56,275 nt of DNA. Source: Bacteroidales bacterium. GTDB taxonomy: Bacteria > Bacteroidota > Bacteroidia > Bacteroidales > F082. How positions within the stretch are numbered: position 1 is the first letter of the stretch; each line of letters starts with the position of its first letter. The translations under genes and the position numbers were made by a program. Below, one piece after another: positions 4,739 to 49,142 of the stretch. Under the pieces are notes generated by a model. That model was given only the letters and a program-made list of their open reading frames with translations, was not told the DNA's origin and did not search any database. The stretch covers positions 1-56,275 of the forward strand of contig JAFXMK010000025.1 in the NCBI GenBank assembly GCA_017530365.1. The letters run 5' to 3'.

Positions 4739-5731
4739 ATGTTTTGTAAGTATTGTGGAACTGAAATAGCTGATGACAGCATCTTCTGTACACGATGTGG
4801 AAAAAAAGTTTTAGAGAATACCCCCATTGTACACGATGAGAAAGTTGATGATAGCAACTCTATTCGAGTTCAGTTAATAGATGGCGAAAAGGATGCTTGG
4901 CAAGCAACTGATAATATGCAATGGGTAAAGCCTATTGGAGCAAGGATAATACAAACTGTTCTTTTAGTTATTGGCTTGTTTTTCTTGTGTTACGGAATTA
5001 TTTGGAGTTGTATTATTGAAAGAAAAGTTAGTGAATCTGGTCACTCGAGTAGTTATCCTTATTTCAGTGGGTTTGTGGCAAGTGCGGATGAGCCTTTGGG
5101 AATTGTTGATGTTTTTGTGGATTTAGAAAGAGATGACCCTAATTTTTCTATGTATAAATCAGAATGGGAGGCGTTATACAATGAGAAATATGGTCTTGTT
5201 GACAAAGAAAGAAGAGAAAAAGTAATTAAACGATTATATAAAGAATGGGGCATTGATGATGACAAGCCTTGGTATGAATTGCCTGTTGAGCTCCGCTTAC
5301 AATATCATCGTGAAATGGAAAGAGAAACACTACCAGTTGTTTCAGTTCCATATGATTATGTCAAATACTACTATAAAGCAGAAGAAATGGCGGTTTCAAA
5401 GTTTAGAATGCAGGTTTTATTTGTGTTTATTTTACCTGCATTGATACTTATTGTATTGTCAATAATATGGATTATTAGAATCACACCTAAATCCGACAAA
5501 AAAACAATTCTTCCTCGTGATTATGCTGATAAAATAGAAATATACACATGGGGCAGTTTCTCTTTTCATAAATACGTAAGGTTTATTAAGGATGATAAAT
5601 ATGGTATTATTGATGCTGTTGGTCGCATTGTCATAGTACCCGCTACGTTTGAATTGATTGAATGGCGTCAAAATAATAAATCATATGACGGTGTACTTGA
5701 CGGTGTAAGGAAGACATATTATTTAGACTGA
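4739..5731 (+). CDS. Zinc-ribbon membrane protein, unknown function
   Basis: A 330-aa protein of unknown function. It opens with a classic zinc ribbon: Cys at residues 3, 6, 17 and 20 in FCKYCG...FCTRCGKK. Two membrane segments follow, near residues 68-95 and 225-250, bracketing a charged extracytoplasmic stretch. The C-terminal stretch (KYGIIDAVGRIVIVPATFELIEW) resembles one WG/KWG-type repeat, so a soluble sensor-like tail is plausible. AT-rich codons set it apart from nifJ and mark the start of an accessory islet. There is no clear promoter box between the nifJ terminator and the ATG. The next gene starts about 60 nt downstream on the same strand. Confidence 0.7.
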   Translation: MFCKYCGTEIADDSIFCTRCGKKVLENTPIVHDEKVDDSNSIRVQLIDGEKDAWQATDNMQWVKPIGARIIQTVLLVIGLFFLCYGIIWSCIIERKVSESGHSSSYPYFSGFVASADEPLGIVDVFVDLERDDPNFSMYKSEWEALYNEKYGLVDKERREKVIKRLYKEWGIDDDKPWYELPVELRLQYHREMERETLPVVSVPYDYVKYYYKAEEMAVSKFRMQVLFVFILPALILIVLSIIWIIRITPKSDKKTILPRDYADKIEIYTWGSFSFHKYVRFIKDDKYGIIDAVGRIVIVPATFELIEWRQNNKSYDGVLDGVRKTYYLD

Positions 5732-5789
5732 GTGATAGTATTACTTGATGAAAGTGAGTGAATTGCATAGTATAAAAACATATTTATAG

Positions 5790-6632
5790 ATGAATAAAAT
5801 AGCAGACATAGGTCAACTTTCGTGGCATATTAATATCAATACATATAATTATAGAGGCAAACACATTGTCCTTTATGATGACCATCGTTGGATTTTAAAT
5901 GTAATCTTCGAGGCCATGAAACTCAATATTTTTAATGGAAAAACCCCAAATATTATCTTTTTTGACCATCACGATGATGCTTGTTACACTGATGTACGAT
6001 TATCAAAATATGGAATTGATAACATACTTGAAATGAAAAGTCGTGATTTCTGGTCGTTAGTTGAATTTGATTTGAGTGCATTAGATGATGATTGGGTGAC
6101 AGCTGGAATGGAATTAGGTATTATCAATAATGTTGTGTGCATTGGCAATGTAGAGAATAACAATATTCAAGACTGGGATAATAATTCATATCAAACAGCA
6201 ACAAATGTAGTACATAAAGGGTTCAGTATAAACCATCTAAAGTGGGAGTTTGGTAGCCGTGGAGTGATTGGAGATTCGATTGTTAAGTATCCATTTTATC
6301 AAACAGTTCGTGAGATTTTTGGATTTAGGTATGGACAGAGTTTACTTCGACCACAACATCCATATGTTTTAGATTTTGACTTAGATTGTTTTACAACAGA
6401 GTATAAAGATACAACATATGCTTGGCCAGAGTATTTTTTCCGTGAGGAATTCTGGCCAAAGGATGATTTTCAACATAGGCATTATATTCAACAACTAATT
6501 GCGAACGCATCAATTATCACTATTTGTAGAGAACCTGAATGTTGTGGTGGACTTGGAGAATCAAATAGAATACTTGGATACCTTGACAGGTATTTGTTTG
6601 ATGGCGTTCTAGGAACAGAACCCATACAATGA
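5790..6632 (+). CDS. UPF0489-like (arginase-fold-like) protein
   Basis: A 280-aa protein. The motifs VLYDDHRW near residue 30 and FFDHHDDAC near 54 recall the UPF0489 family (C5orf22-like proteins, with metal-binding Asp/His motifs reminiscent of arginase-type hydrolases). Further Asp-rich motifs are DFDLDCF near 196 and a Cys pair in REPECCGG near 250. The enzymatic role is unknown; a metal-dependent hydrolase is an inference from the family. Strongly AT-rich, like the gene before it, so the pair was probably acquired together. No signal peptide is visible, so it is likely cytoplasmic. Confidence 0.6.
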   Translation: MNKIADIGQLSWHININTYNYRGKHIVLYDDHRWILNVIFEAMKLNIFNGKTPNIIFFDHHDDACYTDVRLSKYGIDNILEMKSRDFWSLVEFDLSALDDDWVTAGMELGIINNVVCIGNVENNNIQDWDNNSYQTATNVVHKGFSINHLKWEFGSRGVIGDSIVKYPFYQTVREIFGFRYGQSLLRPQHPYVLDFDLDCFTTEYKDTTYAWPEYFFREEFWPKDDFQHRHYIQQLIANASIITICREPECCGGLGESNRILGYLDRYLFDGVLGTEPIQ

Positions 6633-6769
6633 ATTTTATGGATAACAAAGACATTTTTTGAATCGTTTCAAAATGTTGTTATTACACTAAACGAAGGGTA
6701 AATCCCTATGCTATTTATACATCAGTGTGTTCGAATCTGAATGCGCTATTTTTTCTTCTGCCACAATGT

Positions 6770-6821
6770 GACAGCCCTACAGCCCAGGGGTGAATTTGTC
6801 CCATAGGGCTGTAGGGCTGTC
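6770..6821. repeat. Large REP-like hairpin
   Basis: Perfect 16-bp inverted repeat (arms 6770-6785 and 6806-6821; left arm gacagccctacagccc) around a 20-nt loop that can itself pair gggg with tccc. The arms are GC-rich in an AT-rich gap, so this is unlike an ordinary terminator and looks like a palindromic dispersed element. Confidence 0.7.
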
Positions 6822-6883
6822 GTACCACGGCAGCCGCAATCATGAAAATTGAATAATTGTTTCCGCAAAATTGTATTTATACC

Positions 6884-6901
6884 CTTCCCTAAAAAGGGAA
6901 G
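6884..6901. repeat. Small perfect hairpin
   Basis: cttccct/agggaag stem with an AAAA loop. No T-run follows on the plus strand, so a terminator role for the upstream UPF0489-like gene is uncertain. Confidence 0.5.
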
Positions 6902-6973
6902 ATTACGGAGGCATATTATTAAACGGTGCGCTATTTTTTCATCATTATTATTGCGTATTTAAAAAATATTATG

Positions 6974-6981
6974 TATTTTTG
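6974..6981 (+). promoter_or_regulatory. -7 box TATTTTTG for the first DUF1016 gene
   Basis: TATTTTTG with an upstream TTG at 6951-6953 (20-nt spacer). The leader to the ATG at 7029 is about 43 nt. Confidence 0.6.
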
Positions 6982-7028
6982 CTATCATAAACACAACAAA
7001 TACGTTTTAATTAAAAGCAAAATAGTCG

Positions 7029-43289: not shown

Positions 43290-44228
43290 TTACATCACAT
43301 CGCGCATCTGGCGAGCTCGCAGGAGGGAAATCTGCTCATCGATTATATTTGTATTATAAATTATATTTGTATTATAACACATTGCGCAGGGTTCAAAGCC
43401 CAATACATCTAGTAATTTTCTGTCAAACTTCAATTCTGGATTATAAGTCTTTAAATACAAATCTTTCAAATCTTTAATTATATCCATCTTTCTAGGATGA
43501 ACATATCTCAAAACTTTTTTAATATCCTCTTCAGAGTACTGTGTGGGATTGTACATTATTGGTTTATTTGGGTTATTCCCAATATAAGATAAATAAGCGA
43601 AGCGAATAAAAATATCAGTGCGTTTTTTATCTTCCTTTGCCCATGAAAACAAATCATCCAATTGGTGATATATGTTGTCGTTTATTATTTCAACACTAGC
43701 ATTATCAAACTCTGCAAATCCAGAGTTGCTCTTAGTTTCAACCTCAAAACTATGGATATCCGTTCCAAAAGCTATATTAAGTTTGAAAACAAAAGCATCC
43801 GGCTTTGTTAATCTAAGAGACTCATTTTCCTTCCACCATTTACGGAACTCCTTTATTTTTTCTATACCTTGGTCAAAAATCTCATCAGGAATTTTTATTC
43901 TTTCAAATTCAGCATGCAACCTTTCACAGTCGCAATTGTTATGATAAGACGGAGACCTCTCTGGTTGTACATATCTATAACTATCATGTGGTTTTTCTAT
44001 TCTGTGATACTTATAGATTGCTTTTTCAGTGTTTTTACAGAAAGACTTGTAAACAAGTAAATCATTCACTTCCCAACGAGCAAATAACGCTGTCGGATTG
44101 CTTTGATCGATGGTTTTTCCGTTAGGTGCAGTCCAAATGATAGGATCATCAAACTTATAATCCTTGTCTTTTGGAACCTCAAATCCTTTTGTTATTCTAT
44201 GGAAGTTATAATTGGTGATGTATGCCAT
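43290..44228 (-). CDS. Hypothetical 312-aa protein, retron operon
   Basis: A protein of unknown function, 16 nt after the HEPN-motif gene and on the same strand. Seen: an N-terminal aromatic-rich part (YITNYNFHRITKGFEVPKDK), a Cys pair NNCDCERLHAEFERI near residue 99, and a mid domain with helix EKIKEFRKWWKENESLR. A C-terminal helical region follows (YSEEDIKKVLRYVHPRKMDIIKDLKDLYLK), with a second Cys pair FEPCAMC near residue 285, so a metal site is possible. The tail holds a tandem YNTNII peptide from an 18-bp DNA repeat (43342-43377). AT-rich. It could be the retron effector, its partner, or unrelated. Confidence 0.6.
   Translation of the reverse strand: MAYITNYNFHRITKGFEVPKDKDYKFDDPIIWTAPNGKTIDQSNPTALFARWEVNDLLVYKSFCKNTEKAIYKYHRIEKPHDSYRYVQPERSPSYHNNCDCERLHAEFERIKIPDEIFDQGIEKIKEFRKWWKENESLRLTKPDAFVFKLNIAFGTDIHSFEVETKSNSGFAEFDNASVEIINDNIYHQLDDLFSWAKEDKKRTDIFIRFAYLSYIGNNPNKPIMYNPTQYSEEDIKKVLRYVHPRKMDIIKDLKDLYLKTYNPELKFDRKLLDVLGFEPCAMCYNTNIIYNTNIIDEQISLLRARQMRDVM
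43342..43377. repeat. 2 x 18-bp tandem repeat at the C-terminal end of the 312-aa gene
   Basis: Unit attatatttgtattataa, perfectly repeated and in frame, giving YNTNII twice. Slippage here would change the tail length by 6 residues. Confidence 0.85.
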
Positions 44229-44244
44229 GTGTTATTTGGTTTTA

Positions 44245-44970
44245 TTATCTGAAAACAGCATTTTTTACTGTGTTCACGAGTGTGTTTAGAACCTTTTCTA
44301 CTTCTTCATATGGAGTTTTCGACACCCATATTTTCAGTTTTTCGCTTTTATCATCCTTATCACCAGATAGTAAACTTCTATGGCTTTGCACATTTCTTGC
44401 TTGATATATTTCCTGAAATAATGAATAGGTTACACCATAAGCCAAATTTGTTTCGACTCTAATAAGGTTTAACTTGTTGCTATAAGTAACAATGTCGCCT
44501 TTTACTTTACAATAAAACTTGGGGTCTTTAGCATCAATAGCCATTTCATAATAACCATTGCACTTGTTTCTAAGCTCTTCCTCTGTTAGATACTTGGTAT
44601 AGCAATAGTAGTTTACAATACCTTCTGCCTGCAGATTTGCATAACGGCAAAATTCAAGAAAATCAGGTTCGTGTTTTCTCACGCCACATCGGTATCGTAA
44701 CATCTCTCTCCAATCGGCTTCAAGCTTTAAACGAAGCACTTCATCCTTAACAAAAGAATAATCAATTTGTATAGCCATTTCGTCTATGATATAATCTATG
44801 GCCAAATATCTTTCAATGTTGGAAATCATATCATTATTGCCACAAATAGGATTTGCACAGCCCCATCTGGTCTGCAACTCTCTATGCAGCCACCCGTTTC
44901 CTGGCTGCTTAGAAAGTTGAGCAATTTTATCTATTGTTTTTATTATGGCTTCCCGATTATCCATAGTCAT
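44245..44970 (-). CDS. HEPN-motif-containing protein coupled to retron RT
   Basis: A 241-aa cytoplasmic protein, all-helical in appearance. Its start (ATG at 44970, or the third residue Met) overlaps the RT stop as ATGA, so translation is coupled. Near the C-terminus a helix reads LFQEIYQARNVQSHRSLLSG: Arg192-Asn-Val-Gln-Ser-His197 is an RX4H motif as in HEPN ribonucleases, where it forms the active site in a dimer. The rest (GWLHRELQTRWGCANPICGNN, EADWREMLRYRCGVRKHEP, FCRYANLQAEGIVNYYCYTKYL) is not recognised. The HEPN assignment rests on that motif and the helical context, so it is provisional. It is a plausible toxin effector of the retron. Confidence 0.6.
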   Translation of the reverse strand: MTMDNREAIIKTIDKIAQLSKQPGNGWLHRELQTRWGCANPICGNNDMISNIERYLAIDYIIDEMAIQIDYSFVKDEVLRLKLEADWREMLRYRCGVRKHEPDFLEFCRYANLQAEGIVNYYCYTKYLTEEELRNKCNGYYEMAIDAKDPKFYCKVKGDIVTYSNKLNLIRVETNLAYGVTYSLFQEIYQARNVQSHRSLLSGDKDDKSEKLKIWVSKTPYEEVEKVLNTLVNTVKNAVFR

Positions 44971-46442
44971 TCTGAAGTATTTGTCTCGATGAGAGCGGCA
45001 AGGTCATTCAAAACGGATAGGACATTGCCATCATCCATCGATGGGGTTAATAGCGTTTGGGATTTTTGTGAACCAGCCCCAAACGTGTCAATACAAAGTT
45101 TCTCAAATCTATTGGCATAGGACTTATACATAGAGTCGGTTTCACCCTTTACCATTTTGAGATACATGAGTTTTCCTGAGATAATGTTTTCTATATGATG
45201 TTCGCCCTTAAATCTAAGGTTGCGAGTATTGGTCTCGGCATAGTGTTTGGCAAAAATGGCTTGCGCTTCGTCATATCCTTTGACCTCCCAATTATGAATC
45301 AAGGGGCGCAATTGTTTGATATACTTGCGAGAAACATTTGTTTTGGAGTTTACGCTTATTCCTGTCACCTCTTGCCTCATTCCCCGATGACAGAGTCGCG
45401 TCTTATCCTGATTGATTTTGAGACCTTCTTCGTTCTCGATAATGTTGCGCAAAGAAGTGCAAAACTTGCCATCCTCGGCAAAGACATTCTTCATGCCACT
45501 GAAAGTAATATCATCAGCATAACGAGTATATTTCAAACCGTATGCTTTAGCAAGACGAGTAAGTTTGAAATCCAACTTCTCACAAATAATATTGGTAATG
45601 GTTGGCGAAGTTGGCGCTCCTTGAGGAAGCACCTTATTATCTCCTTTTTGATAGCAGCATAAGTCGCTAATCAAACTCGCCACCTTTTCATCCAGACAGA
45701 ATGGCTTTACCAACAACCGATTGAATACACGACCTGAAGTAATAGAAGGAAAGAAATCCTTTAGATCAATGTTGTAAACATAGTTTTGGCCAAGATGTAC
45801 TTGGGCGTTTGTGACAACTGACTTGCCTTTCACGAAGCCCATCGCAGCGGCATTGGGATTATATACCTCTTGCAGAACGAAATTCAACGCTTGCTGGATG
45901 TTCTTTAGTTCACTGCAAGGTGCATCAATGGTGCGAAATTCTCCCTTTTTCTTTTTGGGTATTTTAAAGGTAACATAACGGCCTTTGCGAGCCATTAACT
46001 TCAAACGACCAATCGTGGTTTTTACAGTTTCCATTCCATGCAATGCCTGCAATGCCATATTCAGGACAACACATAAATCGTCTATTCCATTCATTGAATG
46101 CCACCCCTCAACAATCTTTGCCAATTGTTGTTTGAGCTCTTCACCAGTCAGAGGACTACCTCCATATTTTGACAGTTCATCAATTTTGGAAAGGGCATTG
46201 GCTTGGGTCGAAATGACTTCCTCATCTGGCACTTTTGCGGATTCAATATTTTCCAATTCCGTAATGGCAGCAGCCACTCTAGCCAAATCATCCTCAATAG
46301 GTTCAATGGCAAAGAGAATATCCTCGGCTTTTTCAATTCCAGAAGAAACCTGTTCAGAAACCTCAGTTTTCTTTGAAGCATTGGTTTGTCCAAGCAACTT
46401 CTTGAAGTCCTGCTTTGTTGTTATGTTCTTTTTCTTTGCCAT
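44967..46442 (-). CDS. Retron reverse transcriptase (491 aa, N-terminally extended)
   Basis: A retron-type reverse transcriptase. The core has MGFVKGKSVVTNAQVHLGQN with the retron region-X NAxxH motif at residues 212-216, the catalytic NIDLKDFFPSI near 224, PQGAPTSP at 273-280, the YADD box at 308-311, and the retron-specific VTG (EVTGISVNSK) at 359-361. A long N-terminal extension (about 150 residues, DUF-like helices with LTGEELKQQLAKIVEG) and a C-terminal RNA-binding region flank it. It reverse-transcribes its own msr-msd RNA (candidate at 46484-46683) into a DNA-RNA hybrid. Overlap with the next gene suggests an effector. AT-rich, so acquired. Confidence 0.93.
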   Translation of the reverse strand: MAKKKNITTKQDFKKLLGQTNASKKTEVSEQVSSGIEKAEDILFAIEPIEDDLARVAAAITELENIESAKVPDEEVISTQANALSKIDELSKYGGSPLTGEELKQQLAKIVEGWHSMNGIDDLCVVLNMALQALHGMETVKTTIGRLKLMARKGRYVTFKIPKKKKGEFRTIDAPCSELKNIQQALNFVLQEVYNPNAAAMGFVKGKSVVTNAQVHLGQNYVYNIDLKDFFPSITSGRVFNRLLVKPFCLDEKVASLISDLCCYQKGDNKVLPQGAPTSPTITNIICEKLDFKLTRLAKAYGLKYTRYADDITFSGMKNVFAEDGKFCTSLRNIIENEEGLKINQDKTRLCHRGMRQEVTGISVNSKTNVSRKYIKQLRPLIHNWEVKGYDEAQAIFAKHYAETNTRNLRFKGEHHIENIISGKLMYLKMVKGETDSMYKSYANRFEKLCIDTFGAGSQKSQTLLTPSMDDGNVLSVLNDLAALIETNTSE

Positions 46443-46483
46443 ACCAATAGTTTCAACTTACTCACTTTTCCACGATTGTCACC

Positions 46484-46683
46484 ACTTGCACCATTCATTA
46501 CTTCAGAAACAGTAATAATCTCAATAATATACAATATCATAATACATAATATCACGAATCATAATACCATCAAGGACTAACATTGCGAATCATGCGCCTA
46601 GCACATGAACCTGCCGATGCAGCAGGCGCTGCTGTATGGCTAACCACACAGCGGGTCTAATTCAGGGTGCTTATGGTGCCAAT
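46484..46683 (-). ncRNA. Candidate retron msr-msd RNA
   Basis: The gap upstream of the RT can fold into a typical retron scaffold. The a1 arm (46673-46683, ATTGGCACCAT on the minus strand) pairs with the a2 arm (46484-46494, ATGGTGCAAGT), 10 of 11 positions including one G-U. Directly after a1 comes AAGC, offering a branching G at 46670. The msr part holds a 9-bp hairpin with TTAG loop (46631-46652), followed by a second stem (gcgcct 46624-46629 with aggcgc 46594-46599). The AT-rich part after 46573 could be the msd. The a2 arm lies 41 nt before the RT start codon. Folding was done by eye; the boundaries need testing. Confidence 0.55.
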
Positions 46684-46756
46684 CGTTTCAAAGAACTTTA
46701 GGCGTTAGCATTTATTTTTCGAGAGCGCTTTGCCTGTTCTCTCTCGTTTTCGTTTG

Positions 46757-46764
46757 CAAAACTA
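46757..46764 (-). promoter_or_regulatory. -7 box TAGTTTTG for the retron operon
   Basis: Reverse-strand TAGTTTTG just after the DUF1016 stop codon (46782), about 74 nt upstream of the a1 arm, giving the retron its own promoter. Confidence 0.5.
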
Positions 46765-46781: not shown

Positions 46782-47972
46782 CTATTTTCGCGAATTTTCT
46801 TTTTTCAGTTCCAGCTCCCTCACCGTGCGCTCCACTACCTGTTCAAGCTGGTAGGTGGACACGCCCAGCGGCTTGTTGATGTCGCGCAACGACCATTCCA
46901 CAACGGTCTTGTCGGTCGATTTGCAGATGATCAGTCCCACGGTGGGATTGTCGCCCTCGCCACGCAGCAACTCGTCAACGGCGGTAACATAGAAATTCAG
47001 CTTGCCGGCAAACTCGGGGATAAACTTTACTACCTTCAATTCGATGACAACATAGCGGTGTTGCGGCACGTGATAAAACAACAAATCGGGGAAAAAGATC
47101 TGTCCACCAGGCATCTGCAATTCCATTTGACGACCGACGTACGAAAAGCCTTTACCCAACTCTAATAAAAACTGAGTGACATTGGATACAAGGGCATCTT
47201 CCAAATCGTGCTCATCATACCGCTCTTTCATTGAGAGGAATTCGAAATGATAGGGATCCTTCAGCATCTCTTTTGCCAATTGGCTCTGGGGCAATGGTAG
47301 TACATGGCTAAAGTTGGTTACGGCCGCACCTTGACTGCCGAAGAGATCGGCGGCTATTTGATTCTCAAGTTGGCTGCGGCTCCAGCCTTCTTCAGTCACC
47401 TTGTTGATATAGAAAATGGCCTCGTCGAGGGTTTGGCATTTGGAAATAATGAGGACGTGATGAAACCACGGTATCCTGCCAAAGATTTCTGGCATTTCTA
47501 ATTGGTCAGCAGCTTGCTGACATTTTTCGCGATCTTCAATTTGACCAACAGTCTGTTGGCTTTTTTCAACTGCCTCTAATTGGTCAGCAACCTGCTGACC
47601 TTTTTCGTCACCAGCTTGGTGACCAATTTGGTCAACGGGTCGTTGACCTTTTATAACCCGTTCATAATAAAACAGATACCATCGTTTCATATATTTTACA
47701 TTGGTATCCGAAAAGCCCGTTTCATCGGGAAACGCTTGGCGCATGTCGAGGGCAAACTGCTTCACCACACCTGCGCCCCAACGTTCTTCTGCACGAAGTG
47801 CCACCAAATCGCGCCCCACGCTCCAATAAAACTCAAGCATGGCAGTGTTCACACGAACCGCCGCCTTGACTTGGCTTTGGCGGAATCGTTGCTTGATGTC
47901 AGCCATCCATTGCACATAGCCTTCATCGGCAGTCATCATGTCACGGGATACGAATGTCGGTTTGTCGCTCAT
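46782..47972 (-). CDS. DUF1016/YhcG-like PD-(D/E)XK nuclease domain protein (second copy)
   Basis: A 396-aa protein of the same family as 7029-8072 but only distantly similar. The N-terminal helices include EFYWSVGRDLVALRAEERWGAGVV, SDTNVKYMKRWYLFYY, then a variable repeat, then IPWFHHVLIISKCQ. The C-terminal nuclease-type domain has FFPDLLFYHV near residue 297 and the ELK of VIELKVVKF near 311. Between YLFYYERVIKGQ (residues 99-110) and PEIFGRIPWF (161-170) lies a stretch of QQVADQL-like repeats encoded by five DNA palindromes. It sits between a WYL regulator (43 nt upstream) and the retron, and has its own -7 box at 47996-48003. Confidence 0.88.
   Translation of the reverse strand: MSDKPTFVSRDMMTADEGYVQWMADIKQRFRQSQVKAAVRVNTAMLEFYWSVGRDLVALRAEERWGAGVVKQFALDMRQAFPDETGFSDTNVKYMKRWYLFYYERVIKGQRPVDQIGHQAGDEKGQQVADQLEAVEKSQQTVGQIEDREKCQQAADQLEMPEIFGRIPWFHHVLIISKCQTLDEAIFYINKVTEEGWSRSQLENQIAADLFGSQGAAVTNFSHVLPLPQSQLAKEMLKDPYHFEFLSMKERYDEHDLEDALVSNVTQFLLELGKGFSYVGRQMELQMPGGQIFFPDLLFYHVPQHRYVVIELKVVKFIPEFAGKLNFYVTAVDELLRGEGDNPTVGLIICKSTDKTVVEWSLRDINKPLGVSTYQLEQVVERTVRELELKKENSRK
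47505..47648. repeat. Five palindromes inside the DUF1016 gene
   Basis: Palindromes at 47505-47521 (gtcagca/tgctgac), 47545-47559 (ccaacag/ctgttgg), 47582-47600 (ggtcagca/tgctgacc), 47607-47623 (gtcacca/tggtgac) and 47630-47648 (ggtcaacg/cgttgacc). Several are followed by T-runs on the plus strand, so each resembles a terminator hairpin. All are read in frame. Confidence 0.85.
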
Positions 47973-48015: not shown

Positions 48016-49077
48016 TCACAATGCCTCATAAGCGTGAAAATGCGCCACAACGCGGTCGCGTACCTTCTGCTGGATGTCGGCGGGCGAAAGCACCAAGAGG
48101 TCTTTGCCAAACGAACATAACTCTCGTATCAATTCGTAATTCTCAATACACTCGATAGAGAAAAAGTAACCGCCATCAAGCATGGGAAATTGTTGGCGCA
48201 ATGCCATCTCCTTTTCTCCTTTGTAATGCCGCTGTGATTCGTGCAAAGGCTTGGTCGCCACATATTCCTTGGAATAATCGCTAACCCAAAACAAGATGGT
48301 CTGTACGGGACGGTCGTCATACAAGGTAACGCCGACGATGTCCTCGAAACGCTCGTTGAGGTCGCCTTCGTAAGGCACAAATCCTTTGGCTGGCAATGGC
48401 ATCACCTCATCTATACGGTTGAGCGCAAACGACAGGAGTTTTCCATCGTTGTCGGCGGCAACGATAAGATACCATCGGCGATTGTATTCTTTAAGCAGGT
48501 AGGGATGAACTATCAAATGACGATCCTCTTCAGGCGTATCAAAGCGATGGTAATGCAATTCCACGACCTGTTTCTGCGCGACACAAGTGAAAAGTTCTCC
48601 AAGCAAGTTGGAATTCTCTAATGGATTCTTTGTGAACGACACTATCTGCCGTTCGGTTTTCACTTTGAGACTTTCCCTCAGCCTTTCCAAGCCCTCAAGG
48701 TTGGGCAGACCGTCAAATTGCCCGAGAAGCGTGAAAGTCTCTCCAAGTAGATGCTTCTCGTCATCGGTAAGTTTCTGCGTAAATATGGAAAACGACGGGT
48801 CAGCATACCGGTGACAGCTTTTCTTGATGGTTTTGAGGGTCCGCTGGCTGACATCATCAACCTGGTAATGCTCTATCTCCGCCAGAAACGGTCCTTCGTT
48901 TTCAATATAATTAAGGTCAAGCTCAATGGTTCGACGACTGACAGGCTCTTGGCCCATTTCGACCAGCTCCTCATTGACAAGTCTTACCAAATCCTCAGTG
49001 GAATAATGGTGATAGCGGTTGGCTAACAACTTGTCGAGGATGTAATAGCGCGTTACGGCGTTTTTGTTTGCAGGCAT
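48016..49077 (-). CDS. WYL-domain transcriptional regulator
   Basis: A 353-aa regulator. The start at 49077 (MPANKNAVTRYYILDKLL) is chosen since a -7 box at 49100-49107 lies just upstream of it. N-terminal winged helix-turn-helix (STEDLVRLVNEELVEMGQEPVSRRTIELDLNYIE), then the WYL domain (QKQVVELHYHRFDTPEEDRHLIVHPYLLKEYNRRWYLIVAADNDGKLLSFALNRIDEV) and a C-terminal extension (GKDLLVLSPADIQQKVRDRVVAHFHAY). WYL proteins often repress defence operons and sense nucleic acid or nucleotide ligands. Here it is the first gene on the minus strand of the block containing DUF1016 and the retron, so it may control them. Confidence 0.93.
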   Translation of the reverse strand: MPANKNAVTRYYILDKLLANRYHHYSTEDLVRLVNEELVEMGQEPVSRRTIELDLNYIENEGPFLAEIEHYQVDDVSQRTLKTIKKSCHRYADPSFSIFTQKLTDDEKHLLGETFTLLGQFDGLPNLEGLERLRESLKVKTERQIVSFTKNPLENSNLLGELFTCVAQKQVVELHYHRFDTPEEDRHLIVHPYLLKEYNRRWYLIVAADNDGKLLSFALNRIDEVMPLPAKGFVPYEGDLNERFEDIVGVTLYDDRPVQTILFWVSDYSKEYVATKPLHESQRHYKGEKEMALRQQFPMLDGGYFFSIECIENYELIRELCSFGKDLLVLSPADIQQKVRDRVVAHFHAYEAL

Positions 49078-49099
49078 AAGAACTGTTTTTATTATGCCG

Positions 49100-49107
49100 C
49101 AAAGATA
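49100..49107 (-). promoter_or_regulatory. -7 box TATCTTTG for the WYL regulator gene
   Basis: Reverse-strand TATCTTTG, 22 nt upstream of the ATG at 49077. Its position rules out the in-frame methionine further upstream. Confidence 0.6.
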
Positions 49108-49142
49108 CAAATAATCCGCGAAATCTATTTTCGCTATTTTAT

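Follow-up and report, generated by a model that had tools for sequence, protein, structure and literature searches.

A probable retron with a HEPN-like effector, exchanged behind a conserved reverse transcriptase, in a Bacteroidales genome

The 56,275-nt stretch of DNA from a gut-type Bacteroidales genome analysed here (contig JAFXMK010000025.1, assembly GCA_017530365.1; in the following the window, from the first letter of which all coordinates are counted) carries on its minus strand a cassette of a regulator gene, a structured non-coding RNA (ncRNA), a reverse transcriptase (RT) gene and a gene for a 241-aa protein, followed by a gene for a 312-aa protein. Judged by its sequence, the locus is a probable unclassified retron that would act as an anti-phage alarm, and in its relatives the gene behind the RT has been exchanged repeatedly. 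The features of the locus are:

48016-49110, minus strand: regulator with a WYL domain (PF13280), recurring upstream of related RTs
46472-46686, minus strand: ncRNA (putative msr-msd); the a1/a2 span is 215 nt and encloses several hairpins
46658-46686, minus strand: a1 arm, 29 nt; the core arm of the window contains a single internal mismatch
46472-46500, minus strand: a2 arm, 29 nt
44967-46442, minus strand: retron RT of 491 aa, extended at its N-terminus by ~100 aa
44245-44970, minus strand: HEPN-like effector gene, 241 aa, motif R192-N-V-Q-S-H197
44876-44970, minus strand: N-terminal tag of the effector, ~30 codons, kept with the RT when the body is exchanged
43290-44228, minus strand: accessory gene, 312 aa, in which YHx3-4C and LGFxPCxxC are conserved as a putative zinc site; it lies within the exchanged segment

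The 241-aa gene overlaps the RT gene by 4 nt, and the 312-aa gene begins 16 nt past the 241-aa gene. An earlier interpretation made from the letters of the window (the sequence-only reading) had placed these three genes with these spacings next to a WYL regulator and a DUF1016 nuclease, and positions, spacings and both neighbours (PF13280; DUF1016/YhcG) were confirmed.

The RT contains YADD at residue 308, NAQVH at residues 212-216 and VTG at residues 359-361, bearing out the retron-diagnostic NAxxH and VTG motifs of the sequence-only reading. The best RT profiles of PADLOC were RT-Protease_XI (362 bits), RT-TIR_XII (335), RT-Toprim_I-C (307) and RT_XIII (265), all confined to the RT core (residues 151-447 for RT_XIII), and RT_IX scored 175 bits. 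Among the NCBIfam RT models, none of which reached its curated cut-off, the retron models Retron_TIR (288 bits), Ec67 (269) and St85 (215) scored highest, with weak matches to Drt3a (48) and Drt2 (36). The closest solved chains in the Protein Data Bank (PDB) were the retron RTs Ec67 (1.7e-45) and Ec86 (6.7e-40), and the type IX Kva2 RT was found at 1.4e-20. The N-terminal extension, noted earlier, is real and is present in only 5 of the 12 aligned RTs, namely the close clade of the window; by this alignment it is a clade feature and not a defining one.

Upstream of the RT, positions 46466-46697 (232 nt) have a folding energy of -86.8 kcal/mol, where 200 shuffles average -59.35 (sd 4.28), which puts the RNA at z -6.4; the a1/a2 stem was matched by none of 100 shuffles, so the foldable leader RNA of the earlier interpretation holds. 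The stem test compares the top-scoring long-range stem in front of the RT with 100 shuffles per locus. Of the 46 HEPN loci whose upstream DNA was long enough for it, 27 gave a stem matched by at most 5 of 100 shuffles (15 of them by none), 19 had no significant stem, and of 43 control stretches taken behind the effector none reached this level. The 7 loci of the window's RT clade were compared over a core arm of 12 positions, aligned by their shared ends. Of these positions 8 do not vary, 3 differ in both arms with pairing kept, and the single break falls in the window itself. Four loci of a second group show one position altered in both arms and several others broken. The hexamer ATTAGA directly inside a1 is invariant among the aligned loci and is a candidate site for the priming guanosine of a 2′-5′ branch. 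The only Rfam match, to transfer-messenger RNA at 46595-46745 (13.8 bits against a cut-off of 47), overlaps the retron RNA and was taken as chance.

Neither partner protein was matched in PADLOC at an E-value of 0.01, and the 241-aa protein had no match at curated level in Pfam or NCBIfam. R192 and H197 are invariant in all 45 aligned relatives, in which the two are separated by four residues (HEPN type A) or three (HEPN type B). The predicted model of the protein resembles HEPN domains (PDB 7bxo, 2hsb, 6tug); the Foldseek matches are weak and do not by themselves settle the fold. From the model, the protein is predicted to be a HEPN-like, RNA-cutting toxin. A profile built from the aligned effectors matched designed helical repeats in the PDB over the tag region; these were taken as generic helices. 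The effector gene is split in two at loci L100 and L140.

Relatives of the RT were collected as the best 80 of 572 confirmed genome matches to a query alignment of 12 HEPN-linked RTs; 5 of the 80 are contigs already among the family loci (L070, L071, L072, L076, L127). The partner profile matched 44 of the 80, which, given this choice of loci and query, is no prevalence figure. In 42 of the 44, the HEPN gene starts -38 to +62 nt from the RT stop, the exceptions being L115 (1,968 nt from the RT) and L133 (over-long start call). Searches started from the effector gave relatives in 11 of 173 genomes of the family, 7 of 393 from the order and 3 of 395 sampled from the phylum, the window's genome being counted in each figure and the total being 19 different genomes. 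The RT adjoins or is fused to the effector in 18 of the 19, and the lone match (G716, locus L239; E 8e-4) has internal stops and was matched by neither profile on re-scan. Among the 13 best RT matches of the family (E 2.3e-81 or better), 12 have the effector, and the remaining one (G113) has a 635-aa RT instead. Genome G908 (L238) encodes RT and HEPN body in one 570-aa protein, a natural single-gene fusion. The partner profile also matched 2 of 80 viral-contig RT loci (L150, L153), which suggests prophage-like elements as possible carriers of the cassette; the single 241-aa query found no relative in viral contigs, and no effector relatives were found in plasmids and phages at 1e-5.

The sequence-only reading had proposed the 241-aa gene, the 312-aa gene or both as effectors. 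The linkage to the RT, the invariant R..H motif and the HEPN-like model support the 241-aa gene in this role. The 312-aa gene lost its candidacy because its relatives occur without an RT in three places (two copies in G112 and one in G063, with no RT or HEPN gene within 6.8-10 kb) and most HEPN-retron loci lack one: the 312-aa family is present in 5 of 173 genomes of the family and, among the 80 genome loci, only in L072 and, partially, in L074. By this distribution it is an accessory gene. At L013:6964-9128, diverged members of the family stand in tandem and retain its YH..C and LGFxPCxxC residues.

In sister retrons (27 of the 83 rows of the tree described below; e.g. L141:6023-7863, L092:4989-9729 and L118), the partner behind the RT, or fused to it, is a HisKin-conflict domain (PF22561). 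The further genes of this module encode a receiver-like protein of ~210 aa and a protein of ~600 aa with an iREC domain (PF22563); the HisKin-module partner proteins had no PADLOC match.

A quick tree of 83 RTs with SH-aLRT support only (29 HEPN type A, 18 HEPN type B, 27 HisKin, 9 other) interleaves the effector labels, which switch at least 13 times from HEPN to HisKin or back and at least 12 times from type A to type B or back. The RT of the window lies 0.04 changes per column from two RTs that carry type B HEPN. Pairwise alignments place the breaks, BLAST ends here marking the loss of detectable similarity and not exact crossovers. The window and L070 (type B) are 88.9% identical in DNA from the WYL gene through effector codon 28-29, where the alignment ends, to resume at 96.5% from 43224 on; this gap indicates that the effector body and the 312-aa gene were exchanged as one segment. 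L071 and L017 break at effector codon 32. Elsewhere, G125 (A) breaks against G115 (B) at codon 35 and against G106 (B) at about 29, and L130 (B) against L140 (A) at called-frame codon 26. Between L123 (B) and L137 (A) the whole effector gene differs, with 92% identity on both sides, and between L123 and L118 the effector is swapped for the HisKin trio, with flanks 87% and 83% identical. For L132 and L134 similarity fades inside the RT, and thus no breakpoint can be given. Between loci with near-identical RTs, the regulator, the RNA and the RT are retained, and the effector body gives way to a strongly divergent HEPN body or to a three-gene histidine-kinase-like module.

In the window clade the break falls at the end of the ~30-residue N-terminal tag, which goes with the RT and not with the toxin body. 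Over 522 A-B pairs, similarity of the first 34 residues and of the body was compared with RT distance. Tag similarity drops with RT distance (Spearman -0.32; none of 500 permutations as low), from a mean of 0.44 at distances below 0.6 (34 pairs) to 0.14 above 1.5 (382 pairs), and body similarity does not follow it (Spearman +0.04; mean 0.00 in both near and far pairs). Separate HisKin partners have their own tag (leave-one-out scores of 30 bits or more in 11 of 15), to which 11 of 12 RT-HisKin fusions scored under 2 bits (L080, 19.9); the HEPN and HisKin tags did not match each other. For the HEPN tag, 42 of 46 separate proteins scored at least 13.7 bits and the fusion L238 3.5, a value as low as those of the separate L137, L145, L130 and L140. 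Most fused effectors lack such a tag, and the simplest reading is that effectors dock to the RT particle through their tags, for which fusion removes the need.

The WYL regulator was found upstream in 35 of 44 HEPN loci, 14 of 27 HisKin loci and 3 of 9 others, and is the sole PF13280 match in the window's genome (88% complete); it may control the cassette. Whether WYL gene, ncRNA and RT form a retron chassis behind which whole effector modules (HEPN A, HEPN B, or HisKin-conflict with receiver-like and iREC proteins) are recombined, sometimes at the seam of a docking tag that serves as adaptor, is in our estimate evenly balanced. If so, the retron sensor would be effector-agnostic, and the tag would couple any payload to the particle of RT and multicopy single-stranded DNA (msDNA).

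The locus is quite likely a complete retron of a type absent from the searched libraries, consisting of WYL regulator, msr-msd RNA, RT and a predicted HEPN ribonuclease as effector. The anatomy of genes and RNA, the linkage, the conserved motif, the exchange with its breakpoints and the association of the tag with the RT are observed; msDNA, HEPN fold, RNase activity, tethering by the tag, inhibition, trigger and defence are predictions. The RT would reverse-transcribe the msd portion of the ncRNA into msDNA, and the RT-RNA-DNA particle would keep the HEPN protein inactive, tethered by its N-terminal helical tag. Disturbance of the msDNA or the RT by a phage trigger would free or rearrange the HEPN dimer, which would then cut tRNA or other RNA and stop growth (abortive infection). 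Over evolution, the effector behind WYL gene, ncRNA and RT has been exchanged. Near-identical RTs with different effectors would be natural experiments on toxin caging and release by a retron particle, and if the tag is the coupling part, retron-effector recognition is directly testable through ~30 residues.

The 241-aa protein might instead be a structural or DNA-binding adaptor, the real toxin being the next gene (312-aa, helicase, PLD-like or others). The exchanged segment of the window takes in the 312-aa gene, a further gene lies close behind in many loci, and the Foldseek support is weak, all of which speaks for this reading. The genes behind the effector, however, vary widely, and several loci have none or only distant ones, while it is the R..H protein that is constant, with both residues invariant, and the fusion L238 joins RT and HEPN only; we regard the adaptor as unlikely. 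It is more improbable still that the RT belongs to the non-retron defence RTs of the DRT/UG or Abi type, working independently of msDNA, with another role for the upstream RNA: the Drt3a and Drt2 matches and the unmet curated cut-offs would allow it, but the retron models score far higher, the NAxxH and VTG motifs are present, and the a1/a2 arms show both-sided changes. A divergent type IX member, with RT, HEPN and winged-helix (WH) proteins as in retron-Kva2, is the least probable, since despite the pairing of a retron RT with a HEPN-like protein in both (PMC13405049), RT_IX and the Kva2 chain score far below RT-Protease_XI and Ec67, no constant second partner stands behind the RT in the 80 genome loci, and the Kva2 HEPN described there lacks the adjacent R..H motif that is invariant here.

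In retron-Kva2, according to PMC13405049, a HEPN RNase is caged in an RT-msDNA-WH particle, and a trigger frees it to cleave tRNA and arrest growth; a separate WH protein is required, and the active-site residues H64 and R122 are not contiguous. HEPN as a retron effector is therefore not new. The retron reading of the window, supported by the RT motifs, the nearest solved RTs and the a1/a2 RNA, would share with Kva2 a retron RT, ncRNA/msDNA and a HEPN RNase held inside the particle until a trigger frees it; it differs in an RT of another clade (by profile and chain scores), in its contiguous R-x3/4-H motif and N-terminal tag, and in that no second partner gene is constant among the 80 genome loci. 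If correct, it adds a Bacteroidota HEPN-effector retron type separate from type IX. Effector replacement as such has a precedent in retrons with HipA/DUF3037 in place of the usual effector behind a conserved RT; these belong to another RT clade with other effectors, and a retained docking tag is not among the features described in the available part of that report (PMC12548924).

The nearest RT cores by profile belong to types XI (RT-protease), XII (RT-TIR) and I-C (RT-Toprim; Ec67, also nearest by PDB chain), in which the effector is fused to the RT, whereas here a separate HEPN-like gene is found, fused only in L238; the window RT ends at 491 aa with matches over its core only, and carries no protease, TIR or Toprim domain. 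Type XIII resembles the window RT in its long N-terminal part, but the match covers the core only and both partner genes of the window are without a PADLOC match. The partners of type XIII are named ARM and WHSWIM. The HEPN toxins HepT and Csm6 resemble the 241-aa protein in helical fold, going by the model comparison, and in the R..H motif, but are not known to be retron-linked. Their control is by the MNT nucleotidyltransferase or by cyclic oligoadenylate. The absence of a match to a known retron type, noted earlier, holds within the reach of PADLOC-DB 2023, NCBIfam, Pfam and the literature searched, and to the same extent the RT clade with its contiguous HEPN motif, the WYL link and the exchange with a retained tag are new.

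Two further features lie upstream of the RT:

46782-47972, minus strand: DUF1016/YhcG nuclease-like gene between the WYL gene and the ncRNA, a neighbour of the cassette
46757-46764, minus strand: candidate promoter element TAGTTTTG, read from the sequence

The element TAGTTTTG matches TAnnTTTG, the Bacteroidetes -7 consensus, and is a possible promoter for ncRNA, RT and HEPN gene. The cassette had also been described as AT-rich in a GC-richer genome: the GC content is indeed 0.33-0.44 in 1-kb blocks at 43-47 kb and 0.43-0.60 in most other blocks of the window, but this is not unique, a second AT-rich stretch with inverted GC skew lying at 5001-7000 (0.33-0.35).

Behind both HEPN types, a RecD-like helicase (~700-740 aa) and a TPR-like protein (~500 aa), named by eye, recur as a pair (L089, L121, L123, L127, L133, L137, L147 and others). 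A PLD-like gene, likewise named by eye, lies directly behind the type B HEPN gene in L083, L084, L109 and L112.
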